A stretch of 32,250 nt of DNA from positions 1 through 32,250 of the forward strand of contig CAIXKE010000025.1 of the NCBI GenBank assembly GCA_903919975.1, given 5' to 3'. Each line of letters begins with the position of its first letter. Position 1 is the first letter of the stretch. Both the position numbers and the translations under genes were made by a program. Below the pieces are notes generated by a model. That model ran no database searches. It worked only from the letters and a program-made list of their open reading frames with translations, and was not told where the DNA came from. Shown in pieces: positions 8,832-29,231 of the stretch. The DNA comes from Akkermansiaceae bacterium (GTDB lineage: Bacteria; Verrucomicrobiota; Verrucomicrobiia; Verrucomicrobiales; Akkermansiaceae).

Positions 8832-10235
8832 ATGGCCTATCTTAACGAAAATTTCCTTCTGCACTCACCCACGTCATGCCGCCTCTTCCATGAGGTGGCG
8901 AAAGACCAGCCGATCATCGATTATCACTGCCATCTCTCTCCTCGGGAGATCGCCACCAATCACCGGTGGGGCAACCTCGCTGAAATCTGGCTTGGTGGAG
9001 ATCACTACAAATGGCGCCTGATGCGGGCGAATGGCGTGACTGAAGACCTAATCACCGGCGACTCCACCCCGCGTGAGAAATTCCAAGCATGGGCGGAAAC
9101 CGTGCCCTTTACCTTGCGCAACCCGATTCATCACTGGACCCACATGGAACTCCAGCGCTACTTCGGGATCGATCTGATCCTCAGCCCGGACACCGCCGAT
9201 GAGATTTGGGAACGCGCCAATGCGAAACTCGCCGAACCTGATTTCTGCGTGCATGGATTGTTGAAAAAATTCGATGTACGCGTGGTTGGCACCACCGATG
9301 ATCCTGCGGATGCGCTGGATGATCACGCCGCCATCGCCGCATCCGATCTCACCACGTTGGTGGTTCCTACCTTCCGGCCGGACAAGGCATTGCTGGTCGA
9401 TCGGCCCGATCTCTTGAATCCTTGGTTGAAGAAACTCGAAGCCACGGCGGACATCGATATAGTTCATCTATCCGATCTGTTGGCCGCCCTGCAAAAGCGT
9501 CATGACGATTTCCACGCCGCAGGCGGACGTTTGTCCGACCATGGACTCGACCGCGTTCCGGCGCTGCCTTGTTCCGATGAGGAGGCCGCTCTGATTTTTG
9601 ACAACGCACGTGCGGGCAAAGCCGCGACTCAGGAGGAAAAGGAGAAATTCTCGTTCTATCTGATGGTGTTTTTCGGCCAGCTCGACGCCGCGAAAGGCTG
9701 GACCAAGCAACTCCACCTCGGAACCTTCCGAAATGCGAACTCCCACATGTTTGCCAAGCTTGGTCCTGATTCCGGATTCGATACCATCGGCGATACCACT
9801 CAAGGTGCCGCTCTGGTGACTTACCTCGACACACTCGCCCGCCAGGAAGCACTGCCAAAAATGGTGCTGTATAACCTCAATCCGCGCGATAACTACCTCT
9901 TCGCCTGCCTCACCGGCGCGTTCCAGGACGGCACATTCCCCGGCAAGATCCAGTTCGGCTCCGGTTGGTGGTTCCTCGATCAGAAAAATGGCATGGAACT
10001 TCAACTTGATGCGCTCTCGGCCACCGGCCTGCTCTCGCGATTCGTCGGCATGCTCACCGATTCCCGCTCGTTTCTTTCATTCCCGCGCCACGAATACTTC
10101 CGGCGGATTCTGTGCAATCTGATCGGCACCGAAACCGACCGCGGTGAGTTGCCCGATGACTTTCCCGCACTCTCCGACCTGATCCGTGCGGTTTGTTTCA
10201 AAAACGCGAAACGTCACTTCGGATTCAATGTTTGA
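8832..10235 (+). CDS. uxaC: Glucuronate isomerase
   Basis: Cytosolic uronate isomerase, converting D-glucuronate to D-fructuronate and D-galacturonate to D-tagaturonate. It is the first step of hexuronate breakdown. 467 residues, the normal length. The N-terminal stretch NENFLLHS and the metal site IIDYHCHLSPREIA (H32, H34) are conserved. NHRWGNLAEIWLGGDHYKWRLMR and GDTTQGAALVTYLDTLA are further family signatures. The end RRILCNLIGTETDRGELP is also typical. No uxuA/uxuB-type gene is adjacent. The sugar-acid cluster at 19943-26131 may be metabolically linked but is a separate unit. Confidence 0.96.
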   Translation: MAYLNENFLLHSPTSCRLFHEVAKDQPIIDYHCHLSPREIATNHRWGNLAEIWLGGDHYKWRLMRANGVTEDLITGDSTPREKFQAWAETVPFTLRNPIHHWTHMELQRYFGIDLILSPDTADEIWERANAKLAEPDFCVHGLLKKFDVRVVGTTDDPADALDDHAAIAASDLTTLVVPTFRPDKALLVDRPDLLNPWLKKLEATADIDIVHLSDLLAALQKRHDDFHAAGGRLSDHGLDRVPALPCSDEEAALIFDNARAGKAATQEEKEKFSFYLMVFFGQLDAAKGWTKQLHLGTFRNANSHMFAKLGPDSGFDTIGDTTQGAALVTYLDTLARQEALPKMVLYNLNPRDNYLFACLTGAFQDGTFPGKIQFGSGWWFLDQKNGMELQLDALSATGLLSRFVGMLTDSRSFLSFPRHEYFRRILCNLIGTETDRGELPDDFPALSDLIRAVCFKNAKRHFGFNV

Positions 10236-10309: not shown

Positions 10310-11644
10310 ATGAACTCGGTTGCCGTAACGGTCGATGATCTGAATATCCCCAATCTCGGCCCACGCGAGATTCCATCGCCAGGTTGCGCTCGCGACTTTG
10401 CCGCGGAGGGTTCGTCCTGGCATTCGGATGGCGATCGCATCGTGCTCGATGACCACATGGACTCGATTCGCGTGGCCATGAAAAATGACATCGATCCGCC
10501 GTCGATCGAACTCGCCGGCCCTCGCCGTGAAATTTTTTTCAACCCAGCGGAAACCTGCATCGCCATCGTTACCTGCGGTGGCCTGTGCCCGGGTATCAAT
10601 GACGTCATCCGCTCGCTCGTCATGCAGGCCTATCACACCTATGGAGTTCGGCAGATTTTGGGAATTCAGTATGGTTTTGAAGGGTTGGATCCTAGTTGCG
10701 GACACAAGCCGATCGAACTCACGCCGGACAGCGTGGACAATATTCCCACCTTCGGCGGATCGATCCTCGGAACTTCCCGCGGGAAACGCGAAGTCAAGGT
10801 GATGGTCAACCGGCTTGAGTCGCTCGGCGTGAACATGCTTTTCGTCATCGGTGGTGACGGATCCCAAAAGGGCGCTCAGGCGATTTACGAAGAAACCCAG
10901 CGCCGTGGTGGTCGCATGGCTATTCTCGGGGTGCCGAAGACCATCGATAATGACATCATGTTCATGGATCGCAGTTTCGGCTATCAGACTGCATTTGCCG
11001 CTGCTTTTCATGCCGTCATTTCTGCGCACACCGAAGCACGCGGCGCTCGCAACGGGCTGGGTCTCGTGAAATTAATGGGCCGCGATTCCGGTTTCATCGC
11101 TTGCTCCGCCGCGCTCGCAACGGGTGAAGCCAATGCGGTGCTGATTCCGGAAGTGCCATTCAAACTCGAAGGACCGGGTGGCCTGCTGCATTTTCTAGAG
11201 CAGCGCATCACCAGTCGCGGTCACGCCGTCATAATCACCGCTGAGGGCGCGGGCCAGGATCTCATTCCCGATGCCGAAGCCGTCACCGATAAATCAGGAA
11301 ACCGACTGCACTCGGACATCGGATTGTTTCTCAAAGAAAAAATCACCGAGCATTTCAAGGCCCGGAATATCGAACTCAACCTGAAATACATCGATCCGAG
11401 TTATCTCATCCGCAGCATTCCCGCCGCGCCGGAAGACCGGATATTCTGCCTGAATCTAGGACGTCACGCCGTGCACGCCGGCATGGCTGGCAAGACCGGA
11501 ATGGTCGTCGCGCGCTGGCATCAAAGCTATGTCCATCTGCCGATGAGTCTCGTCACCCGCGGCCGCCGTAAGGTCGATCCTACTGGCGATCTCTGGCGCT
11601 CGGTGGTCGAAGCCACCGGCCAACCAGCGAGAATGGGAGTTTGA
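10310..11644 (+). CDS. pfkA: ATP-dependent 6-phosphofructokinase (long, group-X/plant-like type)
   Basis: Phosphorylates fructose 6-phosphate in glycolysis. 444 residues, longer than E. coli PfkA (320) because of an N-terminal extension of about 80 residues. Motifs are TCGGLCPGIND (88-98), IGGDGSQKGA (180-189), the catalytic segment PKTIDND (209-215, D213 and D215) and MGRDSGFIA. GGDG, not GGDD, at the nucleotide loop points to ATP rather than pyrophosphate. The Lys of PKTIDND is the version seen in group-X and plant ATP enzymes. It begins 75 bases after uxaC. Confidence 0.93.
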   Translation: MNSVAVTVDDLNIPNLGPREIPSPGCARDFAAEGSSWHSDGDRIVLDDHMDSIRVAMKNDIDPPSIELAGPRREIFFNPAETCIAIVTCGGLCPGINDVIRSLVMQAYHTYGVRQILGIQYGFEGLDPSCGHKPIELTPDSVDNIPTFGGSILGTSRGKREVKVMVNRLESLGVNMLFVIGGDGSQKGAQAIYEETQRRGGRMAILGVPKTIDNDIMFMDRSFGYQTAFAAAFHAVISAHTEARGARNGLGLVKLMGRDSGFIACSAALATGEANAVLIPEVPFKLEGPGGLLHFLEQRITSRGHAVIITAEGAGQDLIPDAEAVTDKSGNRLHSDIGLFLKEKITEHFKARNIELNLKYIDPSYLIRSIPAAPEDRIFCLNLGRHAVHAGMAGKTGMVVARWHQSYVHLPMSLVTRGRRKVDPTGDLWRSVVEATGQPARMGV

Positions 11645-11680: not shown

Positions 11681-11762
11681 CAAACTAGGCGGAGCCAATT
11701 AGGACCTCGTGGTCTTAATTACCATCGTGAGCGAGACAGCAACCCTACAACGGCCCGTCGGA

Positions 11763-12830
11763 ATGCCAACGATGGAAGGATATGACTTCGATGATCGCCC
11801 TTTCCTAGTCTTCTGGGAAATCACCCGGGCCTGCGCCTTGGCGTGCAGTCACTGCCGGGCGGAGGCTCAACCCAAACGTCATCCGGACGAACTCGATCCC
11901 GCCCAATCCCTCAAACTCATCAACCAACTTGCTGAGTGGAAACCGCCGATGCTCATCCTGACCGGAGGAGATCCGCTAATGCGCCGCGACGTGCTCGACC
12001 TCGTCCGCGCCGCGACCGACGCCGGCCTGCACGTCGGACTCAGCCCATCCGCCACCGAGCGTTTGTTGCATACGGATTTTGCGGAAATCAAAGCCGCCGG
12101 GGTGAAACGCATGTCGTTGAGTCTCGATGGAGCCACCCGCGAGACCCACGATTCATTCCGCGGCGTGAATGGCACATTTGATCGGACGATCGAAGCCGTG
12201 CGCCGCGCTCACGAAGTCGGCTTGGAACTCCAAATCAACACCACCCTCACACGTGGCAATATGAACGAATATGAGGCTTTCAAAAACCTCATGTTCCAAC
12301 TTAAGCCCGCCATGTGGAGCGTTTTCCTGCTGGTTCCCACCGGTCGCGCCGGTTTGGAGGATTTGCCCGACCCGGAAGACATCGAACGCGTTTTCGAAGA
12401 TATGGCCGGTCTGGTCGGCAAGGCTCCATTCGCCGTGAAAACCACCGAGGGCCACCACTTCCGCCGCGTCGTCATGCAGAAAATGGGCGGCGGCGCATCC
12501 CGCCCGCGTCCGGGCATGCGCTCGCCTCTCGGCATCCGCGATGGCCGCGGCGTCATGTTCATCTCCCACATCGGGGAGGTTTCTCCCAGCGGCTTCCTGC
12601 CGATGGTTTGCGGCAACGTGAAAGATACCAACCCTTCGGAAATCTATCGGAATCACCCGCTCTTCGTCTCCTTGCGCGACAATGACGCCCTCGGCGGAAA
12701 ATGCGGTGAGTGCGAATACCGGTCGGTCTGCGGTGGCTCCCGCTCCCGCGCTTATGGCGTGTGTGGCGATCCTTTCGCTGCCGATCCAGCCTGCGTCTAT
12801 CAACCCCAAAAGCGTCTAACCCCTAATTAA
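11763..12830 (+). CDS. Radical SAM/SPASM protein (TIGR04053/AhbD-like)
   Basis: Radical enzyme cleaving S-adenosylmethionine at a [4Fe-4S] cluster. WEITRACALACSHCRAE carries CxxxCxxC (C24, C28, C31 from ATG 11763). LILTGGDPLMR is the GGE-like SAM motif, here GGD. The C-terminal SPASM region has Cys at CGNVKD, CGECEYRSVCGGSRSRAYG and ADPACVY, binding auxiliary clusters. The protein resembles the family next to AhbD and PqqE in sequence. GTG 11709 would add 18 residues with no conserved features. It is followed eleven bases later by a second radical SAM gene in the same direction, so the two should form one operon. The substrate is unknown; a tetrapyrrole or a peptide is possible. Confidence 0.85.
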   Translation: MPTMEGYDFDDRPFLVFWEITRACALACSHCRAEAQPKRHPDELDPAQSLKLINQLAEWKPPMLILTGGDPLMRRDVLDLVRAATDAGLHVGLSPSATERLLHTDFAEIKAAGVKRMSLSLDGATRETHDSFRGVNGTFDRTIEAVRRAHEVGLELQINTTLTRGNMNEYEAFKNLMFQLKPAMWSVFLLVPTGRAGLEDLPDPEDIERVFEDMAGLVGKAPFAVKTTEGHHFRRVVMQKMGGGASRPRPGMRSPLGIRDGRGVMFISHIGEVSPSGFLPMVCGNVKDTNPSEIYRNHPLFVSLRDNDALGGKCGECEYRSVCGGSRSRAYGVCGDPFAADPACVYQPQKRLTPN

Positions 12831-12841
12831 CCACCCCGATC

Positions 12842-14071
12842 ATGATCAATCTCACTAAACTCTGGACTGGCGTCGCTCAACCCGCTGACTCGCTTCGCTA
12901 CGGCGGCGGAAATGGCCATGGCAGCTGCATGCCCACCGAGGCGAGGGCCCGTAAACCCATCACCGTCTGGAACATCACCCGCACCTGTAACCTACGCTGC
13001 GTTCATTGTTATTCGGATTCGAACGCCATGCAATATCCCGGCGAGCTGACCTGGGAACAAATGGAAAAAGTCGTTGCGGATCTCTCCGCCTATGAGGTGC
13101 CCGCCCTACTGCTTTCCGGCGGTGAACCGATGATTCATCCACGGTTTTTCGATCTCGTGGATCTCGCGACCGAAGCGGGATTGAAACTAACCATTTCCAC
13201 CAACGGCACACTCATCACGCCTGAAAAAGCCGCATTGCTCAAGGCTGCGAATGTTGCCTACGTCGGCATCTCGCTCGATGGCATCGGCAAGATTCACGAC
13301 GAATTCCGCCGCAAGGAAGGCGCCTTCGACGGTGCCGTGCGCGGATTTAAAAATTGCCACGACGTCGATCAGAAAACCGGTCTCCGCCTCACGCTCACCC
13401 GCCACAACGTCGAGAACATCAACCAGATTCTCGACTTCATCGAAGACAAGGAAATCAAGCGCGTCTGTTTCTATCACCTCGTGCCTGCCGGCCGCGGTAG
13501 TGAAATGCAAGTCCTCGGTGCCGATGAGGCCCGTGGTGCCATCGACACCATGCTTGCCCGCGTCGAGAGTTGGCACAAACAAGGCATCGACCGCGAATTG
13601 CTCACGGTCACTCAACCCGCCGATGGCGCCCATTTGCTCGTGCGGATGGAAAACGAAAATCATCCGAATCTCGACGAAGCCCGCCGCTTACTCACATGGA
13701 ACGGCGGCGGTGCAAACAGCTCCGGCCGCGGCATCGCCAACATCGATACCCAAGGCGACGTCCATCCCGATCAGTTCTGGCAGGACATTGTGCTCGGCAA
13801 TGTGAAAAAATTGCCGTTCTCCCAAATCTGGGAGGGGAAAAATCAGGAGTCCGCCGAAGTGCTCTCCACCATTCGCTCGGTCGGCCTGCTTTCGCTCGAA
13901 GAACGCCAAGCTCGTATGACCGGACCCTGCGCTGATTGCAAATGGTTCAATATCTGCGGCGGCGGATTCCGCACCCGCTCCTATTTTGCCAACAATGGCG
14001 ACCTCTGGGGCTCCGATCCCGGATGTTACCTCCGCGCTGAAGAACGCCTCGCCACCTGCGAAGTCGCCTGA
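12842..14071 (+). CDS. ahbC: Radical SAM/SPASM protein, AhbC/NirJ-like (12,18-didecarboxysiroheme deacetylase type)
   Basis: 409 residues. The N-terminal MINLTKLWTG...DSLRYGGG matches the characteristic start of AhbC. The radical SAM motif is TRTCNLRCVHCYSD (C49, C53, C56), then LLLSGGEPMIHP and ISTNGTLI. The SPASM end is CADCKWFNICGGGFRTRSY and GSDPGCYL. AhbC removes acetate side chains from didecarboxysiroheme in the siroheme-dependent heme route; NirJ does a related step for heme d1. No AhbA/AhbB decarboxylase or nir genes are in the window, so the activity is inferred by family only. It follows the first radical SAM gene by eleven bases. Confidence 0.8.
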   Translation: MINLTKLWTGVAQPADSLRYGGGNGHGSCMPTEARARKPITVWNITRTCNLRCVHCYSDSNAMQYPGELTWEQMEKVVADLSAYEVPALLLSGGEPMIHPRFFDLVDLATEAGLKLTISTNGTLITPEKAALLKAANVAYVGISLDGIGKIHDEFRRKEGAFDGAVRGFKNCHDVDQKTGLRLTLTRHNVENINQILDFIEDKEIKRVCFYHLVPAGRGSEMQVLGADEARGAIDTMLARVESWHKQGIDRELLTVTQPADGAHLLVRMENENHPNLDEARRLLTWNGGGANSSGRGIANIDTQGDVHPDQFWQDIVLGNVKKLPFSQIWEGKNQESAEVLSTIRSVGLLSLEERQARMTGPCADCKWFNICGGGFRTRSYFANNGDLWGSDPGCYLRAEERLATCEVA

Positions 14072-14819: not shown

Positions 14820-14960
14820 CTACGAGAAGGAATGGGAGGGCGAAATCACTTCGTTTAGTGAGCAATGAGCAGGCGGAGTTGCTTGGCGCGGAGTGGGTGT
14901 GAGTATGAACAGTTACTGGCTTGCCTTTGTCGGGGGATTGAGTCCAAACTCCGTCGCCCG

Positions 14961-15989
14961 ATGAGTGACGAAACCTTGCCCAATTCAGAAATCATCCTCT
15001 ACCAGACTGAGGATGGCCGCACGCGCGTGCAATGTCGGTTTGAGAATGAAACGGTTTGGCTGACACAGGCGCAGATGGCGGACTTGTTCCAGACGACGAA
15101 GCAGAATGTCGGGCAGCACCTGAAAAGTCTCTTTGCCGAGGGCGAGCTAGTGCAGAATTCAGTTGTAAAGGATTCCTTTACAACTGCCGGTGACGGGAAG
15201 AACTACGCGACAAAGTTCTACAATCTGGATGTCATCATCTCGGTGGGTTACCGGGTGAAATCGCTGCGGGGCACGCAATTTCGGATTTGGGCTACGCAAC
15301 GTCTGCGGGAATACATCGTGAAGGGCTTCACAATGGACGATGAGCGGCTGAAGGAATCCGGCGGCGGCGCGTATTTTGACGAGTTGCTGGAGCGCATCCG
15401 CGACATCCGGTCGTCGGAAAAGGCTTTTTGGCGCAAGGTGCTCGATATTTACGCCATGAGCGCGGACTATGACCCGCATACGGAGGCGTCTCAGCTTTTC
15501 TTTGCCACCGTGCAGAACAAGATGCACTGGGCGGCGCATGGGCAGACGGCGGCGGAAGTCATCGCGGCCCGCGCGGACGCGGCGAAACCGAACATGGGGC
15601 TGATGACCTGGCCTGGCAGCCACCTGCGGAAAACCGATGTGGCAGTGGCCAAAAATTACCTGAACGAGCAGGAACTCGGTGATTTGAATCTGATTGTATC
15701 TCTCTACCTCGATTTCGCCGAACTTCAGGCCCGTAGTCGCCGGGTGATGACCATGCGTGACTGGATCGCGAAGTTGGATGATTTCATGCGGATCAGCGAA
15801 CGTGAAATTCTCACCCACGCGGGGAAGGTGAGCCACGAAGGGGCGCTCGCGCGAGCGGAAGAGGAGTTTGAAAAGTTTCGACGCATTGAGGATGCGAAAC
15901 CTTCGCTGGTGGAACAGCATTTCATCGAAGCCATCGAGCAGGTGAAGCAGCTGGAGAATGGCAAACGCGCGAAGAAGAAAAAGCCATGA
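14961..15989 (+). CDS. rhuM: RhuM-family protein
   Basis: 342 residues from ATG 14961. The frame is open back to 14865, but family similarity starts at EIILYQTEDGRTRVQ. An N-terminal segment, VWLTQAQMADLFQTTKQNVGQHLKSLFAEGEL (32-63), looks like a winged-helix or antirepressor-type DNA-binding unit. GKNYATKFYNLDVIISVGYRVKS is the central RhuM signature, followed by FRIWATQRLREYIVKGF and a helical C-terminal half. RhuM was named from a Salmonella pathogenicity island. Homologues are scattered on genomic islands and their biochemical role is not known. The last four bases overlap the acyltransferase start, so the two genes form one unit. Confidence 0.88.
   Translation: MSDETLPNSEIILYQTEDGRTRVQCRFENETVWLTQAQMADLFQTTKQNVGQHLKSLFAEGELVQNSVVKDSFTTAGDGKNYATKFYNLDVIISVGYRVKSLRGTQFRIWATQRLREYIVKGFTMDDERLKESGGGAYFDELLERIRDIRSSEKAFWRKVLDIYAMSADYDPHTEASQLFFATVQNKMHWAAHGQTAAEVIAARADAAKPNMGLMTWPGSHLRKTDVAVAKNYLNEQELGDLNLIVSLYLDFAELQARSRRVMTMRDWIAKLDDFMRISEREILTHAGKVSHEGALARAEEEFEKFRRIEDAKPSLVEQHFIEAIEQVKQLENGKRAKKKKP
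15161..15185. repeat. Perfect 12-bp inverted repeat inside rhuM
   Basis: AGTTGTAAAGGA, T, TCCTTTACAACT is a perfect 12-bp inverted repeat with a one-base centre. It lies within codons 67-75 of rhuM (SVVKDSFTT). It could be a binding site, an RNA hairpin or chance under coding constraint. Confidence 0.85.
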
Positions 15990-19942: not shown

Positions 19943-21445
19943 TTACATTTCAAGCTGCGGGCGATCGGCCTCGGGCCAGTCGATGTGGAAGAACTTGCCG
20001 CGTGGTTGGTCGGTGCGTTCGTAGGTGTGGGCACCGAAGAAATCACGTTGGCCTTGCAGAAGGTTGGCGGGGAGTTTTTCCGAGCGATAGCCATCGTAGT
20101 AGGAGAGCGCGCTGCCCATGCAGGGAGCGGGCACACCTTGGAGGGCGGCGGTGGCGATGACTTTGCGCCATTGCGGTTGGAGCTTGGCGACCTCGCCTTG
20201 GAAATACGGGTCTAGCAGAAGGTTGGCGAGTTTGCCATCGCGTTCGAAGGCTTCGGTGATCTTCTGCAGGAAGACGGCACGGATGATGCAACCGCCTCGG
20301 AAAATCTGCGCGATTTTCCCGAAGTCGAGTTTCCAGTCGTATTCGGTTTGCGCCTCACGCATGAGCTGGAAGCCTTGGGCGTAGGAACAAATTTTCGAGC
20401 AATACAGCGCGGCGTGGATGGCCTCGATGAGTTCTTCCTTGTCGCCGGTGTAGCGGCTGTCAGGACCTGTTAGTATCTTGCTGGCGGCGACGCGTTCGTC
20501 CTTCACGGCGGAAACGCAGCGGGCGAACACGGCTTCGGCGACGGTGGGAGCGGGCACGCCCATGTCGAGCGCGCTGGTGCTGGTCCATTTGCCGGTGCCT
20601 TTTTGGCCGGCGGTATCGAGGATCATGTCCACAAGATCGCCACCGGTCATCGGGTCTTTTTGGGCGAGCACCTCGCCGGTAATTTCGATGAGGAAGCTAT
20701 CGAGCACACCGGTGTTCCACTTGCGGAACACGGCGGCGATTTCCGGCGCGGACATGCCGAGCAGTTTGCGCATGAGGTCATAGGCTTCGCAGATCATCTG
20801 CATGTCGCCGTATTCGATGCCGTTGTGGACCATCTTGACGTAGTGGCCTGCGCCGTTTTCGCCGATGTAAGTGGCGCATGGCACGCCGCCGACGATCGGT
20901 TTGCCGGGAGCGGCACCCTTGAGTTCTTTGCCGGTGACGGGATCGACTTTCGCCGCGATGGCATTCCAAACCGGTTCGATGTGCGAATAGGCATCGCGAT
21001 CGCCGCCGGGCATCACAGCCGGGCCGAAACGTGCGCCTTCTTCACCGCCGGAAACTCCGCTGCCGATGAACAGGAAACCTTTTTCCTTGAGTTCTTTTTC
21101 GCGGCGGATGGTGTCGGTCCACTTGGCGTTGCCGCCATCGATGATGATGTCACCGGGTTCGAAAACCTGGGTGAGCGCGTTGATCACGGCATCGGTGGCA
21201 TTGCCGGCTTGCACCATGATCACGGCGCGGCGCGGACGCTTCAGGCTGGCGGCGAATTCCTCCATGGTTGGGAATCCAACCAGGCCACCGGGAGTATCCG
21301 GATTTTCCGCCACGAATTTCTCCATGGTGGAGGTGGTGCGGTTATACACGGAGATCTTGAATCCGTGGTCGGCGATGTTGAGGGCAAGGTTCTGCCCCAT
21401 GACGGCGAGGCCGATGAGTCCGATATCTGAGAGTTGGTCTGACAT
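19943..21445 (-). CDS. gnd: 6-phosphogluconate dehydrogenase, decarboxylating
   Basis: Oxidises 6-phosphogluconate to ribulose 5-phosphate and CO2. 500 residues, slightly longer than the usual 470 because of a C-terminal tail. The Rossmann motif is [16 protein letters not shown] (9-24). YNRTTS after the second strand is typical for [24 protein letters not shown] and [15 protein letters not shown] carry the substrate-binding and catalytic Lys, His and Asn. It is the last gene of the same-strand sugar-acid cluster. An inverted repeat fills the gap to the kinase gene upstream. In that setting it would drain the product of the kinase and reductase into the pentose phosphate pool. Confidence 0.96.
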
Positions 21446-21495
21446 GATGATGTTTGGTTGAATTGAAAGTTTGTTGGTGGAGTGAAATTTTGAAG

Positions 21496-21566
21496 CACAG
21501 ATTACTCAGATTGAATTCAGAGAAAATTCATCATCTTCATAATCTGTGTTCTCTGTGAAATCTGTG
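21496..21566. repeat. Inverted repeat in the kinase-gnd gap
   Basis: CACAGATT (21496-21503) is inverted to AATCTGTG at 21541-21548 and again at 21559-21566. The AT-rich block resembles the dispersed TCTGTG(T/A)-type intergenic repeats of PVC genomes, by recollection. Gap 21446-21588 holds no gene. Confidence 0.6.
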
Positions 21567-21588
21567 ATTAATTTTTTGAATTTAAGAT

Positions 21589-22686
21589 TTATCGAACGAC
21601 GCGGGCGCCGCCGCCGCCGATGACTTTTTCGACTTCCTTGCGGGTGACCATCGAGGTGTCGCCGGGAGTGGTGGAGGCGAGCGCGCCGTGGGCGGCTCCG
21701 TATTCGACGGCTTTCTGGGCGTCGTTGAATTCGAGGAATCCGAACTGGACACCGGATGCGAAGCTATCGCCGCCGCCAACGCGGTCCAGGATTTCGAGGT
21801 CGGGGTATTTGCGGGATTCGTGGAATTGTCCGCCGTGCCAGAGGATGGCGGACCAGTCATTGACCGTTGCGGTTTTCACGCCACGCAGGGTGGTGGCGGC
21901 GACTTTGAAGTTCGGAAACGCTTTCACAGCGGTTTCGATCATCGTTTTGAAAGCATCGAGTTCGATGTTGGAAATGTTGTGATCCACACCTTCGACTTCG
22001 AAGCCGAGCGAAGCGGTGAAGTCTTCTTCGTTGCCGATCATGACATCGACGTATTTCGCGATTTCACGGTTCACTTCCTGCGCCTTGCCGAGGCCGCCGA
22101 TGGTTTTCCAGAGCGACGGGCGGTAGTTGAGGTCGTAGGAAACGACGGTGCCGTATTTGTTAGCGGATTTGACGGCTTCAACGGTGAGTTCGGCGGTGGT
22201 TTCGGATAGAGCGGCGAAGATTCCGCCGGTGTGGAACCAGCGCACGCCGAGCTTGCCGAAGATGTGGTCCCAATCGATGTCGCCGGGTTTGAGTTGGGAG
22301 GCGGCGGTATTGCCACGGTCCGGATTTCCAACCGCGCCGCGGATGCCGAATCCACGTTCTGTGAAGTTGAGTCCGTTTCTAACCGATCGGCCGATGCCGT
22401 CGTCTTCGCGCCATTGGATGAAGTCGGTGGCGACGCCGCCCTGCATGATGAAATCCTCGACGAGGTGTCCGATCTCGTTATCCACGAAGGCGGTGACGAC
22501 GGCGGTTTTGCAACCGAAGCATTTCCGCAAGCCGCGGGACGTGTTGTATTCTCCGCCGCCTTCCCAGACTTGGAAGTTGCGGGCGGTGCGGATCCGGCCT
22601 TCACCGGGATCGAGACGGAGCATGACTTCGCCGAGAGAGATCTGGTCGAAGGTGCATTCGGATTTTGGTTTGATGGTTAGGGGCAT
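21589..22686 (-). CDS. PfkB-family sugar-acid kinase (kdgK- or kguK-like)
   Basis: 365-residue ribokinase-fold kinase. FDQISLGEVMLRLDPGEG begins the domain, WEGGGEYNTSRGLRKCFG is the N-terminal PfkB signature, and DRVGGGDSFASG (301-312) is the second signature, with catalytic base D307. The sequence fits 2-keto-3-deoxygluconate kinases. 2-ketogluconate kinases belong to the same family, and the neighbours (a KguD-like reductase, gnd, LacI) make that alternative attractive. Specificity cannot be settled from sequence alone. ATG 22686 is the only good start. The C-terminus is Gly-rich. Confidence 0.88.
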   Translation of the reverse strand: MPLTIKPKSECTFDQISLGEVMLRLDPGEGRIRTARNFQVWEGGGEYNTSRGLRKCFGCKTAVVTAFVDNEIGHLVEDFIMQGGVATDFIQWREDDGIGRSVRNGLNFTERGFGIRGAVGNPDRGNTAASQLKPGDIDWDHIFGKLGVRWFHTGGIFAALSETTAELTVEAVKSANKYGTVVSYDLNYRPSLWKTIGGLGKAQEVNREIAKYVDVMIGNEEDFTASLGFEVEGVDHNISNIELDAFKTMIETAVKAFPNFKVAATTLRGVKTATVNDWSAILWHGGQFHESRKYPDLEILDRVGGGDSFASGVQFGFLEFNDAQKAVEYGAAHGALASTTPGDTSMVTRKEVEKVIGGGGARVVR

Positions 22687-22710
22687 GATTTTTTGGATTC
22701 AGATTTATTT

Positions 22711-22807
22711 AACCGCAGATGGACTCAGATGAACTCAGATAAGATTGGATGAAAGAATTTATGGATCAAATTTCTTCATTAACGTTTATCTGCGTTCATC
22801 TGCGGTT
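22711..22807. repeat. Inverted repeat in the LDH2-kinase gap
   Basis: AACCGCAGATG (22711-22721) is inverted as CATCTGCGGTT (22797-22807), 11 bp perfect. Just inside, GATGAACTCAGATAA (22729-22743) pairs at 14 of 15 positions with TTATCTGCGTTCATC (22786-22800). The two pairings compete, so alternative structures are possible. Confidence 0.75.
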
Positions 22808-22822
22808 TATGTTTTCTTTGAT

Positions 22823-23920
22823 CTATTCTGCTACTTTAAAACCGGAGATTTTCCAGCGGGGCTTGCGGGCTTCGGCGGCGAGTTCGTTGAAGGCTTGGAT
22901 TTCGGCTTCGGAGAAGAGTAGTCCACCGTTTTTCGCGGAGCGGGCGGCGGCTTGGGCTTCGATCTGGCCGGGGAGCATGCAGTTTTCATTGCCATGGCCG
23001 AGGATGTCTTGGACGACAGCCTTGACGTTTTCAGATTGCGAGCGGCCTTTGGCGAATGAGCCGGAGCTCATGGCGTCGGGATGCCAGACTTGGAAGAAGA
23101 AACAGCAGGTGCCTTTTTCGCCTTCGGGAACACTGTCCCAACGGTTGCGGATGGTGGGGAGCGAACCACCGATGAAGCCGCCGATGATTTCATTGAGGAG
23201 GGCGAGGCCGTAGCCTTTGTGCGCGCCGAAGGGCACAAGGTATTTCGCGGCGTTCGGTTCGGTGGTGGGTTGGCCGTTTGCATCGACGGCGGCACCTGGT
23301 GGCAATTGTTTGCCTTCGCGGGCGAGTTGTTGGACGCGGCCCATGGCGACCACGGAGGTGGCCCAATCGATGACGATCGGATAACCGAGGGAATCGGCGG
23401 TGGGGAAACCCCAGCTGTGCGGATTGGTGCCGAGGGTGGGATATTTGCCGCCGAAGGGAACGACTTCCGCGAGTGCGGCGGTGCAATTCGTGTAAGCGAT
23501 GTAGCCACGGCGCGCGGCTTCCATCACATAGCCGCCGCCCCAGAGGTAGTGGAAGGCGTTGTCCACGGAAACCATGCCGACGCCATATTTATCGGCGAGT
23601 TTGATGGCGGCTTCGATGGCGGCGTAGCCGGTGGCTTGGCCTAACTTTTTGTTAGCATTCCAAACTTCCGAACCACGGAAGCGGGTTTTTACTTTTTCGA
23701 TCTTTGCCTTGGGCACGCAACCACCGGCGGCCGAGCCGAACAGGTGGTCGAGGTGAAGTGCTTTGAGCGCGTTGTGGGTGCGGATGCCATTGCGGGTGGC
23801 CTCGGCGCAGAATCGCGCGCCATCGGCGGCTTCAGTGGCGCTGTAACCCCGCTTGCGGTAAGCGGCGGCGACGAGCGCGTTGTGTTGCTCTTCGGGGACG
23901 ACGTAGAAGATTTCGGACAT
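22823..23920 (-). CDS. LDH2-family NAD(P)-dependent dehydrogenase (malate/lactate/ureidoglycolate/sugar-acid type)
   Basis: 365 residues of the Ldh_2 fold, distinct from Rossmann lactate dehydrogenases. Signatures are ATRNGIRTHNALKALHLDHL (the SHG-like catalytic region, H49 predicted), LGQATGYAAIEAAI, NSxxHY-like DNAFHYLWGGGYVMEAA, and PTLGTNPHSWGFPTAD, GAHKGYGLALLNEIIGG. Members reduce or oxidise 2-hydroxy acids, including sugar acids (YiaK) and sulfolactate (ComC). In this cluster a ketogluconate-type substrate is most likely. The flanking gaps carry palindromes. Substrate stereochemistry is not readable. Confidence 0.88.
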   Translation of the reverse strand: MSEIFYVVPEEQHNALVAAAYRKRGYSATEAADGARFCAEATRNGIRTHNALKALHLDHLFGSAAGGCVPKAKIEKVKTRFRGSEVWNANKKLGQATGYAAIEAAIKLADKYGVGMVSVDNAFHYLWGGGYVMEAARRGYIAYTNCTAALAEVVPFGGKYPTLGTNPHSWGFPTADSLGYPIVIDWATSVVAMGRVQQLAREGKQLPPGAAVDANGQPTTEPNAAKYLVPFGAHKGYGLALLNEIIGGFIGGSLPTIRNRWDSVPEGEKGTCCFFFQVWHPDAMSSGSFAKGRSQSENVKAVVQDILGHGNENCMLPGQIEAQAAARSAKNGGLLFSEAEIQAFNELAAEARKPRWKISGFKVAE

Positions 23921-23944
23921 GGTGGTGATAAGTTAGGTGGTAGG

Positions 23945-24011
23945 AAAGTGGCGCGGGCATCCTGCCCGTCGCCTCTATTTTTGGCAGCGGGCAGGATACC
24001 CGCGCCACTTT
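23945..24011. repeat. Long near-perfect hairpin between the two dehydrogenase genes
   Basis: Bases 23945-23968 pair with 23988-24011 over 24 positions with one mismatch. The arms are AAAGTGGCGCGGG and ATCCTGCCCG against CGGGCAGGAT and CCCGCGCCACTTT, with a 19-base loop. It occupies most of the 94-base gap, three bases from the end of the upstream gene. It would fold as one strong RNA stem in the transcript. Confidence 0.9.
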
Positions 24012-24014
24012 TCA

Positions 24015-25001
24015 TTAGAGAAGTGCGTCGGGCGGGGCAACGGCGTTGACTTGCGCCAGCGGTTTTTCGCCACGGAGCAGGTGGAGGAGGTTTTGAGCGG
24101 CCATCATCGCCTGGCGTTGGACGCTTTCGTAGGTGCGCGATCCGATGTGCGGGGTGATGATCGAGTTCTTCACGGTGAGCAGCGGGTGATCGGGGCGGGG
24201 TGGTTCTTCATCGAGCACGTCGCCGCCGTAGCCGCCGACTTTTCCGCTTTCGAGGGCGGCTGCGAGATCCTCGTTGTTGACGACTTCGCCGCGGCTGCAG
24301 TTGAGGATGATTACGCCTTCTTTCATGGTGGCGATGGTTTCCGCGCGGACCATCTCGCGGGTTTCATCGGTTAGATTGGTGTGCAGGGAAATGACGTCTG
24401 ATTTTTCAAACACTTCTGCCACGCTGGCCGCGCGGGTGATTCCGTGGGCTGCGGTGAAGGCCTCGTCCCAATAAACATCGTAGCCGATCACGTTCATGCC
24501 GAAGGCTTTCGCGCGGGTGGCGACTTCCTTGCCAATCCGGCCGAGTCCGACGATGCCGATGGTTTTGCCCATGATTTCGTGACCGGTCAGGCGTTTCCAG
24601 CATCCGGCACGGGTGAAATTGACTTCTTCGACGAGGTGGCGGTTCAGGGCGAGTAGCAGGGCGAAGGTGTGCTCGGCGACGGTGGTGTGGTTCACGCCCG
24701 GGCAGAAGGCGAGGGGAATGCCCATTTCTGTGGCGGCGGTGACATCGATTTTGTCCACGCCGATGCCGTATTTGCTGAGGATTTTCAGGCGCGGCGCGGC
24801 TTTTTCCAGCACTGCGCGAGTGATTTGGTCGTCGCCGCACAGGATGGCGTCGAAGTCGCCGACGAGTTCGAGCATTTTCGCCTCACCGAGTGGGCCGCGC
24901 TCGCGGACAATTTCGATGCCGGTGGATTCGAGAAGCTCGTGGTGAGCGCCGGGAATGTCCTGATAGGACGTGGTGGTCAGAAGGATGCGGACTTGGCTCA
25001 T
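24015..25001 (-). CDS. D-isomer-specific 2-hydroxyacid dehydrogenase (PGDH/KguD-like)
   Basis: 328 residues. The NAD(P)-binding motif is GIVGLGRIGKEVATRA (GLGRIG at 152-157). The catalytic triad is NCSRGEVVN (R237), DVLDEEPP (E266) and TPHIGSRT (H285). It is shorter than full phosphoglycerate dehydrogenase and lacks an ACT domain, so a sugar-acid or glyoxylate-type reductase is more likely than serine synthesis. It is the first gene after lacI and has its own promoter with an embedded operator-like motif. A 2-ketogluconate 6-phosphate reductase role is a hypothesis from context. Confidence 0.88.
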   Translation of the reverse strand: MSQVRILLTTTSYQDIPGAHHELLESTGIEIVRERGPLGEAKMLELVGDFDAILCGDDQITRAVLEKAAPRLKILSKYGIGVDKIDVTAATEMGIPLAFCPGVNHTTVAEHTFALLLALNRHLVEEVNFTRAGCWKRLTGHEIMGKTIGIVGLGRIGKEVATRAKAFGMNVIGYDVYWDEAFTAAHGITRAASVAEVFEKSDVISLHTNLTDETREMVRAETIATMKEGVIILNCSRGEVVNNEDLAAALESGKVGGYGGDVLDEEPPRPDHPLLTVKNSIITPHIGSRTYESVQRQAMMAAQNLLHLLRGEKPLAQVNAVAPPDALL

Positions 25002-25029
25002 AATGGAGATGGTTTGGGGTTGGCGGTGT

Positions 25030-25056
25030 AATCTTACACGTGTTGGTTTATGTCAA
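25030..25056 (-). promoter_or_regulatory. Promoter with embedded LacI-type operator, dehydrogenase cluster
   Basis: On the minus strand, TTGACA (25056-25051) is a consensus -35. About 17 bases on is a weak -10 (GATTAC). Between them lies CCAACACGTGTAAG (25046-25033), with the palindromic core ACACGTGT (25036-25043). A CG-centred palindrome between -35 and -10 is the usual LacI-family repressor position. The same left half occurs upstream of lacI itself (26188-26200). Confidence 0.6.
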
Positions 25057-25069
25057 TCGGGAAAGCCGG

Positions 25070-26131
25070 TCATTTTGATCTTGGGGTGGGGGCGGGGCCG
25101 GTTGAGTGTCGGATGACGAGCTTCGGGTGGACGTGCAATTCGCGGGGTGGCAGATTGGCGTTTTTTGGTTCGAGGCGTTCGAGTAAGCCGCGCACGGCGA
25201 GGTCCATCAGGCGGCTGGTTTGGTGATCGACGGTGGTGAGTGAGGGGAAAAAGTGTTCGGCGACGGCGATATTGTCGTAGCCGATTACCGAGATATCCTC
25301 GGGGACGCGTATATGATCTTCGCGCAGGCGGTTGATTGTGCCGATGGCGATGCGGTCGTTGAGAGCGATGATGGCGGTGGGGAGATTTCCGCTGTATTGA
25401 TCGATGAGTTCGGCGGCGAGTTCGTAGCCGTATTCGAAGGTGTGTTTGGTTTCGCCGGGATGGAACAGCGAGATGAAGTCTTGGTCGAAATCCAAGCCGC
25501 ACTGGGGTGCGTATTTTTTCAAACCGGGCATGCGCAGGGTGCCGAAGCGGTTTTGCGGATCGATGCCGAGCAAGGCGATTTTGCGGTGGCCGAGACCGGT
25601 GAGATGTTCCAAAACCAGCTTCATCGAGCGGGTGCGGTCGAGCAGGATGCGGTCGCCGGGGACGGGGTTTTCGGGGTCGACCCAAAAGCAGGGTGTCTTG
25701 GTGCGGTCGAGCATGCGGATGGCGGAATCATCGGCGGTTAGGCGGGAAAAGATTAGCACGATGCCGTCGACATGTTGGCCTACAAATCGGCGGATGGCAC
25801 CGCGTTCGAGTTCCACGTTGTCGCCGGCGAGTTCGATGACGGTTTGGTATCCTTCCTCGCGGAGGCGCTGCTGGAGGGAGGCGGCGCGCATGGCGAGAAC
25901 CGGTGATTCCAGGTCTTGGAAGCAAACGCCGACGGTGGCGGTTTGGCCGCCGCGGAGGCCGCGGGCGAGGGCGCTGGGCTCGAAATCCAGATCATGGATG
26001 GCCTGTTTGACTTTGCGCACGGTTTCCTCCTTCACGCCGCTGTGGCCATTCAGCACGCGTGAGACCGTCCAGCGCGAGATGCCCAGATGTCTTGCGAGAG
26101 CGGCGGTGGTGGTGAGTGGGGTGCTTGGCAT
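25070..26131 (-). CDS. LacI-family transcriptional regulator
   Basis: 353 residues from ATG 26131. The HTH is TTTAALARHLGISRWTVSRVLNGHSGVKEETVRKV, followed by the hinge FEPSALARGLRGG. The C-terminal part is the periplasmic-binding-protein-like sensor: VGVCFQD, HVDGIVLIFSRL, GHRKIALLGID, ALNDRIAIGTINRL, DISVIGYDNIAVAEHFFPSLTTVDHQ. The frame is open upstream to 26224, but the family begins near 26131. It sits directly upstream of the dehydrogenase, same strand, with 68 bases between. Operator-like motifs in both promoters suggest it controls the cluster and itself. The ligand is probably a sugar acid. Confidence 0.93.
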   Translation of the reverse strand: MPSTPLTTTAALARHLGISRWTVSRVLNGHSGVKEETVRKVKQAIHDLDFEPSALARGLRGGQTATVGVCFQDLESPVLAMRAASLQQRLREEGYQTVIELAGDNVELERGAIRRFVGQHVDGIVLIFSRLTADDSAIRMLDRTKTPCFWVDPENPVPGDRILLDRTRSMKLVLEHLTGLGHRKIALLGIDPQNRFGTLRMPGLKKYAPQCGLDFDQDFISLFHPGETKHTFEYGYELAAELIDQYSGNLPTAIIALNDRIAIGTINRLREDHIRVPEDISVIGYDNIAVAEHFFPSLTTVDHQTSRLMDLAVRGLLERLEPKNANLPPRELHVHPKLVIRHSTGPAPTPRSK

Positions 26132-26187
26132 AGTCGGGTCAGGAGCGGTAAGGCGTGGGGTTTGCTTAGCACAACAACTCGGGTTTG

Positions 26188-26200
26188 CCAACACGCGTAT
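26188..26200. promoter_or_regulatory. Second operator-like motif in the lacI-pntAA gap
   Basis: CCAACACGCGTAT shares CCAACACG.GTA with the site at 25033-25046. On the minus strand it abuts a lacI promoter candidate (TTGGCA, 17 bases, TAAGCA). On the plus strand it would fall in the spacer of a weak pntAA promoter (TTGCCA then AATTCA). Autoregulation and control of pnt are both possible. Confidence 0.5.
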
Positions 26201-26349
26201 GATTTTGAATTCATGACGGGTCATGGCCGGACCCCGCGCCGCTTCTCGATTGCCGTGCTTTGATTCTTAAATCGCGGATTGGTCTTGGAATGCTCGGGGT
26301 TTTCGATCTAATATCCGCATGTGATTTCCGGGATACTCCGGCTGATACT

Positions 26350-27480
26350 ATGTTATTCTTTGTTCCCAAGGAAATCCGTCCGCTTGAGACCCGCGTCGCA
26401 CTGGTTCCCGCAGCTGTAACCAAGTTGGTCAAGCTCGGTGCCCAAGTGGCTATCGAATCCGGTGCCGGAGTCGCCGCCGGTCATCTCGATGCCGACTACG
26501 CCGCCGCCGGTGCGTCTCTCATCACCGACCGCGCTGCCGCTCTTGGTGAGGCGGATTTCGTCCTGCGTGTATTGCCCGCTGAGATCGATGAAATCCGACT
26601 TCAGAAACCCGGTTCGTTTGCGACCGGCCTGATGGATCCTTTCGGATCGCGCGAGCGGATCGCCGCCTACGCCGCCGCCCATGTGACCGCTTTGTGTAGC
26701 GAACTCATTCCGCGCTCGACGCTCGCCCAGAAAATGGACGTGCTGAGCAGTCAGGCAAACCTCGCGGGCTACATGGCGGTCATTGCGGCGGCCGAGCAAT
26801 TGGACTCGATCCTGCCGATGATGATGACTCCGGCAGGCACGATTTCCCCGGCGAGGGTATTCATTATCGGTGTTGGAGTCGCGGGATTGCAAGCCATCGC
26901 TACCGGACGCCGACTTGGCGCGCGTGTCGAGGCGTTTGATACCCGCCCGGTCGTCGAAGAGCAGGTGAGATCGCTTGGTGCCAAGTTTGTGAAAATAGAC
27001 ATCGGCGAGATCGGTCAGACCGAGCAGGGATATGCCAAAGAACTCACTCAGGATCAGGTGAAAAAACAACGGGATGGCATGGCGAAAGTCTGTGCGTCAT
27101 CGGATATCGTCATCACGACGGCCAAGGTTTTCGGCCGCAAATCTCCGATTCTTCTCACGCGGGAGATGATATCGGGAATGCGCCACGGCAGCATCATTGT
27201 CGATCTGGCCGCCGAGGGTGGCGGCAATGTCGAGGGCACGGTTTGTGACCGGGAAGTGGTCACGGATAATGGTGTTAGAATCATCGGTTGGAGCGCGCTT
27301 GAGCGCAAGGTTCCACGCCATGCCAGTCAGATGTTTGCCGCCAACATGGCCAACCTGATCGAGCACTTTTGGAATTCTGAAACCAAAACCTTTCCGCTCA
27401 AAACCGACGACGAAATCACCAAGGGCTGCATGCTCACGCATCAAGGTGAAATCGTCCACGATCTCTTCAAGAATCTTTAA
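26350..27480 (+). CDS. pntAA: Re/Si-specific NAD(P) transhydrogenase subunit alpha 1 (NAD-binding)
   Basis: 376 residues from ATG 26350. It is the soluble NAD(H)-binding domain I of the proton-translocating transhydrogenase. KEIRPLETRVALVPAAVTKL opens the AlaDh/PNT N-terminal domain. VLSSQANLAGY (131-141) and FIIGVGVAGLQAIATGRRLG (171-190) with D197 (EAFDTRP) form the NAD site. EGGGNVEGT and VPRHASQMFAANMANL are further signatures. Domain I is a separate chain, as in Rhodospirillum. The frame extends back to 26260 without family similarity. It starts the operon pntAA-pntAB-pntB, divergent from lacI. Confidence 0.95.
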   Translation: MLFFVPKEIRPLETRVALVPAAVTKLVKLGAQVAIESGAGVAAGHLDADYAAAGASLITDRAAALGEADFVLRVLPAEIDEIRLQKPGSFATGLMDPFGSRERIAAYAAAHVTALCSELIPRSTLAQKMDVLSSQANLAGYMAVIAAAEQLDSILPMMMTPAGTISPARVFIIGVGVAGLQAIATGRRLGARVEAFDTRPVVEEQVRSLGAKFVKIDIGEIGQTEQGYAKELTQDQVKKQRDGMAKVCASSDIVITTAKVFGRKSPILLTREMISGMRHGSIIVDLAAEGGGNVEGTVCDREVVTDNGVRIIGWSALERKVPRHASQMFAANMANLIEHFWNSETKTFPLKTDDEITKGCMLTHQGEIVHDLFKNL

Positions 27481-27495
27481 CTCTGAAAAATCCTC

Positions 27496-27810
27496 ATGGA
27501 ACTCGCCCCGCTGTTGCTGCTGCTTTTTGCCTTCACTCTCGCGATTTTTCTCGGTTTCGAGTTGATCGCCAAGGTTCCGTCCCAATTGCACACGCCGCTA
27601 ATGAGTGGCTCCAATGCGATCTCCGGCATCACCATTGTCGGCGCGCTACTCGCTCTCAATGTCGGTGAATCTCCCGCGGCCAAATGGCTGGGTTTTGCCG
27701 CCGTGGTCTTGGCTACGATCAATGTCGTCGGCGGCTACTTGGTCACGGATCGGATGCTCGCCATGTTTAAGAAAAAGGATCACTCCGGGAAAGGAGAACC
27801 GAAGGCATGA
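27496..27810 (+). CDS. pntAB: NAD(P) transhydrogenase subunit alpha 2 (membrane)
   Basis: 104 residues with three predicted membrane helices (LLLLLFAFTLAIFLGFELI; ISGITIVGALLALNV; WLGFAAVVLATINVVGGYLV). VPSQLHTPLMSGSNAISGITIVGAL is the hallmark of this subunit, part of the proton channel. The basic C-terminal tail is soluble. It lies 15 bases after pntAA, and its stop overlaps the pntB start by four bases (ATGA). Confidence 0.95.
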   Translation: MELAPLLLLLFAFTLAIFLGFELIAKVPSQLHTPLMSGSNAISGITIVGALLALNVGESPAAKWLGFAAVVLATINVVGGYLVTDRMLAMFKKKDHSGKGEPKA

Positions 27811-29231
27811 GCGCGGTCCTCATCAATCTCCTTTATATCATCTCATCGATTCTTTTTATCCTGGGAATCAAGATGCTCGGCGCTGCGGATACCGCCCGCC
27901 GTGGCAACCGTCTGTCTTCGGTCGGGATGTTGCTCGCAGTCGTCGCCACCCTGTTGTATCTCGGCCTCGATTGGCGCATGGTTGCTGGTGGAATCGCGCT
28001 GGGCACGATCATCGGGGGCATCGCTGCGATGCGAGTGCAGATGACCGGCATGCCGGAAATGGTGGCCTTGTTCAATGGCTTCGGCGGACTCGCCTCATTG
28101 CTCGTGGGCGTGGCGGAATATATCAAACTCCGCGATGGCGGTATGAGCCATTATCTTGAGCAATTGGAGAAACAAAGCGGTGTCACGGTGCCGGATTGGT
28201 TTGTGATGGTGGCCATTGGTCTAACCGTTCTCATTGGTGGCATCACCTTTACTGGCAGCATGATTGCCTATGGGAAACTGGCCGCGAAAATTTCCGGAAA
28301 AGCCATACTTTTTCCCGGTCAGAAGTTGATCAATATCATCCTGATCGTCGCCTCGTTTGTTGGAATGGGTCTGATGACCATCGGTGTGGATAGCCCAACT
28401 GCGGTGATCGCCGGACTCGCGCTGGTGGTTCTATCGCTGGTTCTCGGCGTGCTGATGACCTTGCCAATCGGCGGAGGTGATATGCCGGTGGTGATTTCCC
28501 TGCTCAACTCGTTGTCAGGCATCGCCGCATCGATGGCCGGGTTTATCATTCTCAACAGCGTGTTGGTGGTCGCCGGTTGTCTGGTCGGGGCCTCCGGGAT
28601 CATCCTTAGTATGATCATGTGTAAGGCCATGAACCGGAGTATTGGCAATGTGCTCTTCAGCGGATTCGGTGCCACCACCCAGGCCGCCGGTGCGGTGCAG
28701 GGTGAAATGAAAGCGTCTTCCACCGAAGATGCTTATTATGTGCTCGAAGCTGCCCAAAGCGTCGTTTTTATTCCTGGCTATGGCATGGCCGTCGCGCAGG
28801 CCCAGCATGCGGTCAAAGAACTTGCCTCGCTCTTGGAAGCTAATGGTGCGGAAGTCCGGTTCGCCATCCATCCGGTCGCCGGACGGATGCCCGGTCACAT
28901 GAATGTTCTGCTCGCCGAGGCCGATGTTCCTTATGAGCAACTCTGTGAGATGGATCAGGTCAATCCGATCATGAACACCGTCGATGTCGCCATCGTTATC
29001 GGGGCCAACGACGTGGTGAATCCGGCCGCGCTCAATGATCCCGGCAGCCCTATCTACGGAATGCCCATCATCAACGCTCACGAAGCGAAGACCGTGTATT
29101 GCCTCAAACGCGGTAAAGGCACCGGTTTCTCGGGGCTCGAAAACGCTCTCTTTTTCGGCGAAAACACCCGCATGCTCTACGGCGACGCCAAGGCCACCGT
29201 TTCCGCTTTGGTCTCGGAGTTCGGGAAATGA
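27807..29231 (+). CDS. pntB: NAD(P) transhydrogenase subunit beta (NADP-binding)
   Basis: 474 residues, with about nine membrane helices in the first 270. GFGGLASLLVGVAEY and SLLNSLSGIAASMAGFIL are conserved channel segments. The NADP-binding domain III follows, with VVFIPGYGMAVAQAQHAV, IHPVAGRMPGHMNVLLAEADVPY and IGANDVVNPAA. With PntAA and PntAB it forms the complete enzyme, which uses proton motive force to reduce NADP with NADH. The gene set is complete and intact. Confidence 0.97.
   Translation: MSAVLINLLYIISSILFILGIKMLGAADTARRGNRLSSVGMLLAVVATLLYLGLDWRMVAGGIALGTIIGGIAAMRVQMTGMPEMVALFNGFGGLASLLVGVAEYIKLRDGGMSHYLEQLEKQSGVTVPDWFVMVAIGLTVLIGGITFTGSMIAYGKLAAKISGKAILFPGQKLINIILIVASFVGMGLMTIGVDSPTAVIAGLALVVLSLVLGVLMTLPIGGGDMPVVISLLNSLSGIAASMAGFIILNSVLVVAGCLVGASGIILSMIMCKAMNRSIGNVLFSGFGATTQAAGAVQGEMKASSTEDAYYVLEAAQSVVFIPGYGMAVAQAQHAVKELASLLEANGAEVRFAIHPVAGRMPGHMNVLLAEADVPYEQLCEMDQVNPIMNTVDVAIVIGANDVVNPAALNDPGSPIYGMPIINAHEAKTVYCLKRGKGTGFSGLENALFFGENTRMLYGDAKATVSALVSEFGK

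Follow-up and report, generated by a model that had tools for sequence, protein, structure and literature searches.

Five consecutive minus-strand genes in a 32,250-nucleotide stretch of DNA from an Akkermansiaceae bacterium (the window, contig 25 of a 3.8-Mb genome that is 97.6% complete; CAIXKE010000025.1) may encode the lower part of a hexuronate pathway that turns mannonate into gluconate. The genes encode a LacI-family regulator, a D-2-hydroxyacid dehydrogenase (D2HDH), an LDH2-type dehydrogenase, a PfkB kinase, and the 6-phosphogluconate dehydrogenase Gnd. Our leading interpretation, to which we give a little less than an even chance, is that the LDH2/D2HDH pair inverts C2 of mannonate by way of 2-ketogluconate, so that gluconate (or its 6-phosphate) reaches Gnd and no mannonate dehydratase is needed. 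More tentative still is the broader proposition that Verrucomicrobiota feed hexuronates into the pentose phosphate pathway by a route not described before, one in which LDH2 and D2HDH would invert C2 of mannonate, the keto intermediate would in some lineages be phosphorylated by the KDG-type kinase before reduction, and the end product would be the compound on which the Gnd of the same operon acts. The reaction steps are what we infer from protein families, gene order, co-occurrence, and neighborhoods, which are themselves read directly from sequence.

A preliminary description of this DNA had given the same five-gene order and called the run a LacI-linked sugar-acid cluster including Gnd, and both statements are borne out by open reading frame positions and by Pfam and NCBIfam families. 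The LacI-family gene (25,070..26,224; LacI 41 bits, Peripla_BP_3 116 bits) begins upstream of the earlier start at 26,131, which is an internal in-frame ATG; it is followed by the genes for D2HDH (24,015..25,001; 2-Hacid_dh_C, 203 bits), the malate/L-lactate-type LDH2 protein (22,823..23,920; Ldh_2, 233 bits), and the kinase (21,589..22,686; PfkB, 59 bits), and finally by gnd (19,943..21,445; 6PGD, 445 bits), with intergenic gaps of 68, 94, 136, and 143 bp. Gnd scores 715.4 bits against an NCBIfam equivalog cut-off of 413, as expected for the decarboxylating 6-phosphogluconate dehydrogenase, and is encoded by the single 6PGD gene found in the source genome. The lacI product passed no NCBIfam equivalog cut-off, its top model being RbsR (186 of 382 bits).

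The two dehydrogenases belong to families of opposite handedness—LDH2 proteins act on (S)-2-hydroxy acids and D2HDH proteins on (R)-2-hydroxy acids—and D-mannonate is 2S, D-gluconate 2R. Both proteins keep the residues of their families' catalytic motifs. D2HDH retains Arg237, Glu265/266, and His285, and carries a GLGRIG motif followed by Asp175, of NAD(H) type; in LDH2, His49 and Asp185 are invariant in 12 of 12 aligned sequences, and we take these residues to have the catalytic roles familiar from each family. Alignment also places LDH2 in a distinct subfamily, marked by THN at residues 48–50 (SHG in three aligned solved relatives) and by FHYLWGGG. In the proposed scheme, the cluster would supply the later steps of a hexuronate/aldonate module, in whose earlier steps the uronate isomerase UxaC and a short-chain dehydrogenase/reductase (SDR) would convert glucuronate to fructuronate and then to mannonate. 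LDH2 would oxidize mannonate to 2-ketogluconate, and D2HDH would reduce this to gluconate, the pair standing in for a mannonate/gluconate 2-epimerase; the 6-phosphogluconate that Gnd decarboxylates would then arise from gluconate or, if the PfkB kinase acts ahead of the reduction, from phosphorylated 2-ketogluconate. The kinase would primarily be the 2-keto-3-deoxygluconate (KDG) kinase of a parallel UxuA–KdgK–Eda branch, also present in the source genome. That opposite-family dehydrogenases might epimerize a 2-hydroxy acid through its keto acid had been suggested in the preliminary description, and we favor this idea on the basis of the co-occurrence of the pair together with SDR, UxaC, gluconokinase, and Gnd neighbors in part of the loci.

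Across 145 related genomes, searched at E ≤ 0.001 for LDH2 (123 genomes) and E ≤ 1e-60 for D2HDH (115 genomes), 112 encode both proteins, 11 LDH2 only, 3 D2HDH only, and 19 neither, an association with a Fisher P of 2e-13 in a statistic that ignores the relatedness of the genomes. All three D2HDH-only genomes are at most 81% complete. A wider sample of 387 genomes from the phylum included 65 with LDH2 (E ≤ 1e-60). Within the same genus, LDH2 has no D2HDH nearby in 11 of 17 loci; in 10 of these 11 genomes, D2HDH lies elsewhere.

We compared gene neighborhoods on the same strand within 8 kb of 134 distinct LDH2 loci, leaving aside the source window and any locus with an identical LDH2 sequence; these loci are not independent, 80 being the best 80 of one search and the others hand-picked. 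Since some loci reach less than 8 kb on one side, the counts are minima: D2HDH accompanies LDH2 in at least 100 loci, the kinase in at least 50, SDR in at least 22, UxaC in at least 14, Eda in at least 8, Gnd and LacI in at least 7 each, the gluconokinase GntK in at least 4, and UxuA in at least 2. On either strand, SDR, UxaC, or UxuA occurs within 8 kb in 28 of the 134. In Verrucomicrobiota relatives the D2HDH–LDH2–kinase run can be followed by genes for UxaC, Gnd, Eda, gluconokinase, or an SDR resembling mannonate oxidoreductase, the fullest arrangement being D2HDH–LDH2–kinase–SDR–Gnd–Eda–UxaC (L092), and, judged by these neighbors, the setting of the run in part of the relatives is a hexuronate context. 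The SDR has as its top match the D-mannonate oxidoreductase PRK08277 (256 and 245 bits, under the cut-off of 281), UxaE is divergent to lacI in three loci (L090, L091, L098), and GntK above its cut-off adjoins LDH2 in three others (L040, L042, L057). In the window, uxaC (8,832..10,235, plus strand) lies on the same contig, opposite in strand and not adjacent to the cluster; it adjoins the module in some relatives. Gnd has joined the module in three same-strand arrangements (the window's own clade, L082, and L092), with a divergent gnd in L064; five of the seven Gnd loci belong to the own clade and probably represent one event, L082 and L092 two more.

Where catabolic neighbors occur, the enzymes acting ahead of the pair would supply mannonate (UxaC, SDR) and those acting behind it would consume gluconate or 6-phosphogluconate (GntK, Gnd). 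One genome (G244; 99% complete, 8 contigs) combines the operon with UxaC and SDR and also encodes Gnd and GntK, and profile searches found in it no UxuA, Eda, or Edd above cut-off. No ManD was seen among three of its four MR_MLE proteins, one protein being glucarate-dehydratase-like just under cut-off. No way from mannonate to 2-keto-3-deoxy-6-phosphogluconate (KDPG) was found in this genome, an absence that, coming from profile searches of a draft genome, is not proof. Two further candidates for conventional steps were considered and rejected. An ordinary Edd route received no match above cut-off in any of 31 hand-picked LDH2 genomes (2 of 14 control genomes had one), and ManD as a hidden mannonate dehydratase reached a top score of 161 against a cut-off of 550 among MR_MLE proteins of 5 of the 12 genomes lacking UxuA (those examined were 3 of 4 in G244, 2 of 4 in G300, 2 of 4 in G467, 1 of 4 in G314, and 6 of 9 in G414). 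With 250 of 750 bits, one of the G414 proteins looks like a gluconate/galactonate dehydratase, and gluconate might therefore also leave by conversion to KDG.

The order D2HDH–LDH2–kinase–gnd is kept in all five close same-genus loci (L059–L063), although gnd is interrupted by the contig end in L063 and carries one in-frame TAG in L061 (genome G014). A chance neighborhood can be dismissed given this order and the adjacent D2HDH/LDH2 pair in other families. lacI is less constant: it is found in L059 (2.3 kb upstream, with two other open reading frames between) and L060, survives as a 32-residue remnant in L062, and is missing from L061 and L063. The window LDH2 is 92% identical to a copy on a Luteolibacter metagenome-assembled contig (JAUYNL010000102.1). 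In a tree of 61 LDH2 proteins, the window copy and the five close same-genus copies form a supported group with four copies from another family (f9), and 11 other same-genus copies form a separate supported group; this topology suggests transfer between orders. Plasmid searches with LDH2 and D2HDH returned only matches below 60% identity, and a Streptomyces mirabilis plasmid encoding a 53% identical kinase has no match to either dehydrogenase in its 21 kb.

Several observations weigh against the mannonate–gluconate interpretation. LDH2 occurs with no D2HDH match in 11 of the 145 genomes and stands alone in 26 of the 134 loci; 106 of these loci have no SDR, UxaC, or UxuA within 8 kb. In 6 of 20 loci the kinase follows D2HDH and LDH2 lies elsewhere, which is not expected of a strict pair; the six are L211, L214, L217, L218, L220, and L222, once with Eda in front. 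A divergent GlcD-type FAD oxidase gene in 48 of the 134 loci (divergent to d2hdh in L080, L081, L083, L086–L088, and others) possibly points to another 2-hydroxy acid as substrate. The source genome, moreover, encodes UxuA beside an SDR as well as Eda, so that the ordinary KDG route looks complete, the pair is not required to account for growth on uronates, and the kinase can simply serve the KDG route; of the 31 hand-picked genomes, 19 have UxuA and 28 have Eda (27 above cut-off). Finally, GntK above cut-off, found in 30 of 41 genomes, is missing from the source genome; gluconate formed there could be used no further unless 2-ketogluconate is a substrate of the kinase or the genome encodes some other gluconokinase.

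One alternative is an ordinary KDG branch, in which the kinase would be KdgK, the dehydrogenases would catalyze side reactions with related acids as substrates, and gnd would be a housekeeping neighbor; we regard this as unlikely. It draws on the presence of UxuA and Eda in the source genome and on the kinase itself, which, on profile and structure-sequence matches, is of the KDG-kinase type (GGGD at residues 304–307). Its top solved-structure match, 2afb (presumably from Thermotoga maritima), is named 2-keto-3-deoxygluconate kinase (190.8 bits), the KDG kinase 1v19 (presumably from Thermus thermophilus) scores 59.3 bits, and the top NCBIfam model, a KHG/KDPG aldolase-kinase fusion (NF041633), reaches 273.9 bits against a cut-off of 700. 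The kinase has matches in all 31 genomes searched, and in five of them (G233, G264, G276, G402, G405) no more than 200 bp separate the window-type kinase from Eda. In four others (G127, G139, G314, G359) a different kinase, 33–36% identical, sits beside Eda with the window-type kinase apart, leaving another role open for the latter. Published work adds a characterized KDG kinase, LguH of Luteolibacter LG18, the sole one annotated there, which phosphorylates KDG with pyrophosphate as well as ATP (PMC12632266). Because the window kinase was the only match in each of seven same-genus genomes searched, LguH is probably its orthologue. An alginate-grown Verrucomicrobiota isolate was likewise assigned UxaC, UxuB, UxuA, KdgK, and KdgA by its authors (PMC13274419). 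The canonical UxaC–UxuB–UxuA–KdgK–Eda pathway shares UxaC, SDR, a KDG-type kinase, and Eda with the neighborhoods of some relatives, but UxuA lies beside the module in just 2 of the 134 loci and the two extra dehydrogenases and Gnd are foreign to it. An ordinary KDG branch leaves unexplained the D2HDH/LDH2 co-occurrence, GntK beside LDH2, and the repeated joining of gnd.

It is rather unlikely that the pair inverts a different 2-hydroxy acid. Examples would be the conversion of L-gulonate to L-idonate via 2-keto-L-gulonate that has been proposed for glucuronate catabolism in fungi, or the inversion of a small acid resembling lactate, glycerate, or sulfolactate. The stereochemistry of L-gulonate and L-idonate would fit the pair equally well, most LDH2 loci have no uronate gene nearby, and the recurrent GlcD-type oxidase also speaks for another substrate; against this, UxaC yields fructuronate, not gulonate, and SDR, UxaC, UxaE, and GntK, where present, indicate mannonate and gluconate. 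The sulfolactate pair SlcC/ComC likewise consists of opposite-handed dehydrogenases, one of LDH2 type, with a C3 sulfonate as substrate. L-sulfolactate dehydrogenase is indeed the top NCBIfam match of the window LDH2, but at 134 bits it falls far under the cut-off of 500, and such a pair was set aside as first choice for this reason. The Aspergillus enzyme GluC forms L-idonate by reduction of 2-keto-L-gulonate (PMC4870679); the pathway it belongs to resembles the proposed one in inverting a hexonate at C2 via the 2-keto acid, and its authors suggest an exit via gluconate and 6-phosphogluconate, but its substrates are L-gulonate and L-idonate and its host a fungus.

We consider decidedly unlikely the specific route put forward in the preliminary description, a Pseudomonas-like pathway in which external 2-ketogluconate would be phosphorylated by the PfkB kinase (as KguK) and reduced by D2HDH (as KguD) to 6-phosphogluconate for Gnd, with LacI as a PtxS analogue. 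The kgu kinase is of PfkB type and the kgu reductase of D-2-hydroxyacid type, so that fitting families and Gnd do stand together in the cluster, and the lack of GntK above cut-off in the source genome agrees with such a route. The kgu operon itself, with PtxS, groups a kinase, a reductase, and a LacI regulator and ends in 6-phosphogluconate (PMC11678583). The window cluster differs in its KDG-type kinase, its extra LDH2 (which the kgu-like route leaves unexplained), and the uronate genes that are its relatives' catabolic neighbors where any are seen; no KguT- or KguE-like gene is present among the five cluster genes, no wider search having been made. The PtxS operator TGAAACCGGTTTCA has no match with fewer than three mismatches in the window, the sole three-mismatch site lying at 11,083, outside the cluster. 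A 2-ketogluconate kinase that has been characterized shows 35.9% identity to the Thermus KDG kinase (PMC6651773), and the window kinase therefore seems to fall outside its group, in a comparison that included no KguK sequence; in Cupriavidus, the 2-ketogluconate kinase also takes KDG, indicating that specificities overlap (PMC6651773). The earlier account had held that a kinase confined to KDG, with a co-regulated Eda-type aldolase encoded elsewhere, would speak against 2-ketogluconate, and what we found comes close to this—kinase orthologues adjoin Eda in some genomes and Eda lies elsewhere in the source genome—save that the four genomes with a separate kinase beside Eda leave the window-type kinase free for another substrate. 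2-Ketogluconate may nonetheless occur as an internal intermediate formed from mannonate.

Returning to the inversion of mannonate by the dehydrogenase pair, a close precedent is Lactobacillus suebicus, extracts of which convert mannonate to 6-phosphogluconate, with genes left unassigned (Valk 2020, PMC6978723). The two schemes share a uronate isomerase, tagaturonate epimerase, fructuronate reductase, the mannonate-to-6-phosphogluconate conversion, and Gnd, running redox-neutrally to ribulose-5-phosphate; L. suebicus, however, uses a mannonate kinase first and then a 6-phosphomannonate 2-epimerase, where we propose two dehydrogenases (PMC6978723). The D-gluconate 2-epimerase GntE achieves the same net conversion of mannonate to gluconate as a single nickel enzyme of the unrelated LarA family, with a nickel-pincer cofactor (PMC7583248). 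Other uronate or gulonate routes have been reported (PMC5673643, PMC5788505), and searches confined to open-licence literature turned up no paper that we recognized as describing an LDH2/D2HDH pair acting on mannonate. The net conversion is known, for nickel enzymes and for an activity to which no genes have been assigned, and a two-dehydrogenase solution would be new. If correct, it would let uronic acids reach ribulose-5-phosphate in a redox-neutral manner, a point of interest both to engineering and to the study of how pectin and alginate are turned over, and would assign functions to two widespread unnamed enzymes.

A site immediately ahead of d2hdh may be where the LacI protein acts to repress the operon. 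A putative promoter/operator at 25,026..25,056 (minus strand) reads TTGACA-N14-TAAGAT with a ACACGTGT core and includes a 14-nt palindrome at 25,026–25,039. The pattern TTGAC(A/G)-N14-TA(A/G)GA recurs upstream of d2hdh in four of five close relatives (L059, L060, L061, and L063, not L062) and is not found in the more distant L064; the perfect palindrome CCTACACGTGTAGG occurs in L059 only. By this comparison, the block may combine a promoter with a LacI site; a consensus promoter scan, which performed at background, did not report it, and a terminator scan was also at background. Between d2hdh and ldh2, a 29-nt inverted repeat (23,945..24,011; 90% complementary, 9-nt loop) is perhaps a REP-type element; a search of the window allowing one mismatch revealed no second copy. 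Beside lacI and divergent from it starts a gene for a transhydrogenase alpha subunit (371 bits, cut-off 383), followed by an apparent beta subunit (26,260–29,231 in all), with no match to either in the compared relatives' loci. Elsewhere in the window, the protein encoded at 14,865–15,989, which we take to be RhuM-like, scores 493 bits to the PADLOC candidate defense family PDC-S05, and two adjacent putative radical-SAM proteins are encoded at 11,709–14,071, beside phosphofructokinase and uxaC.

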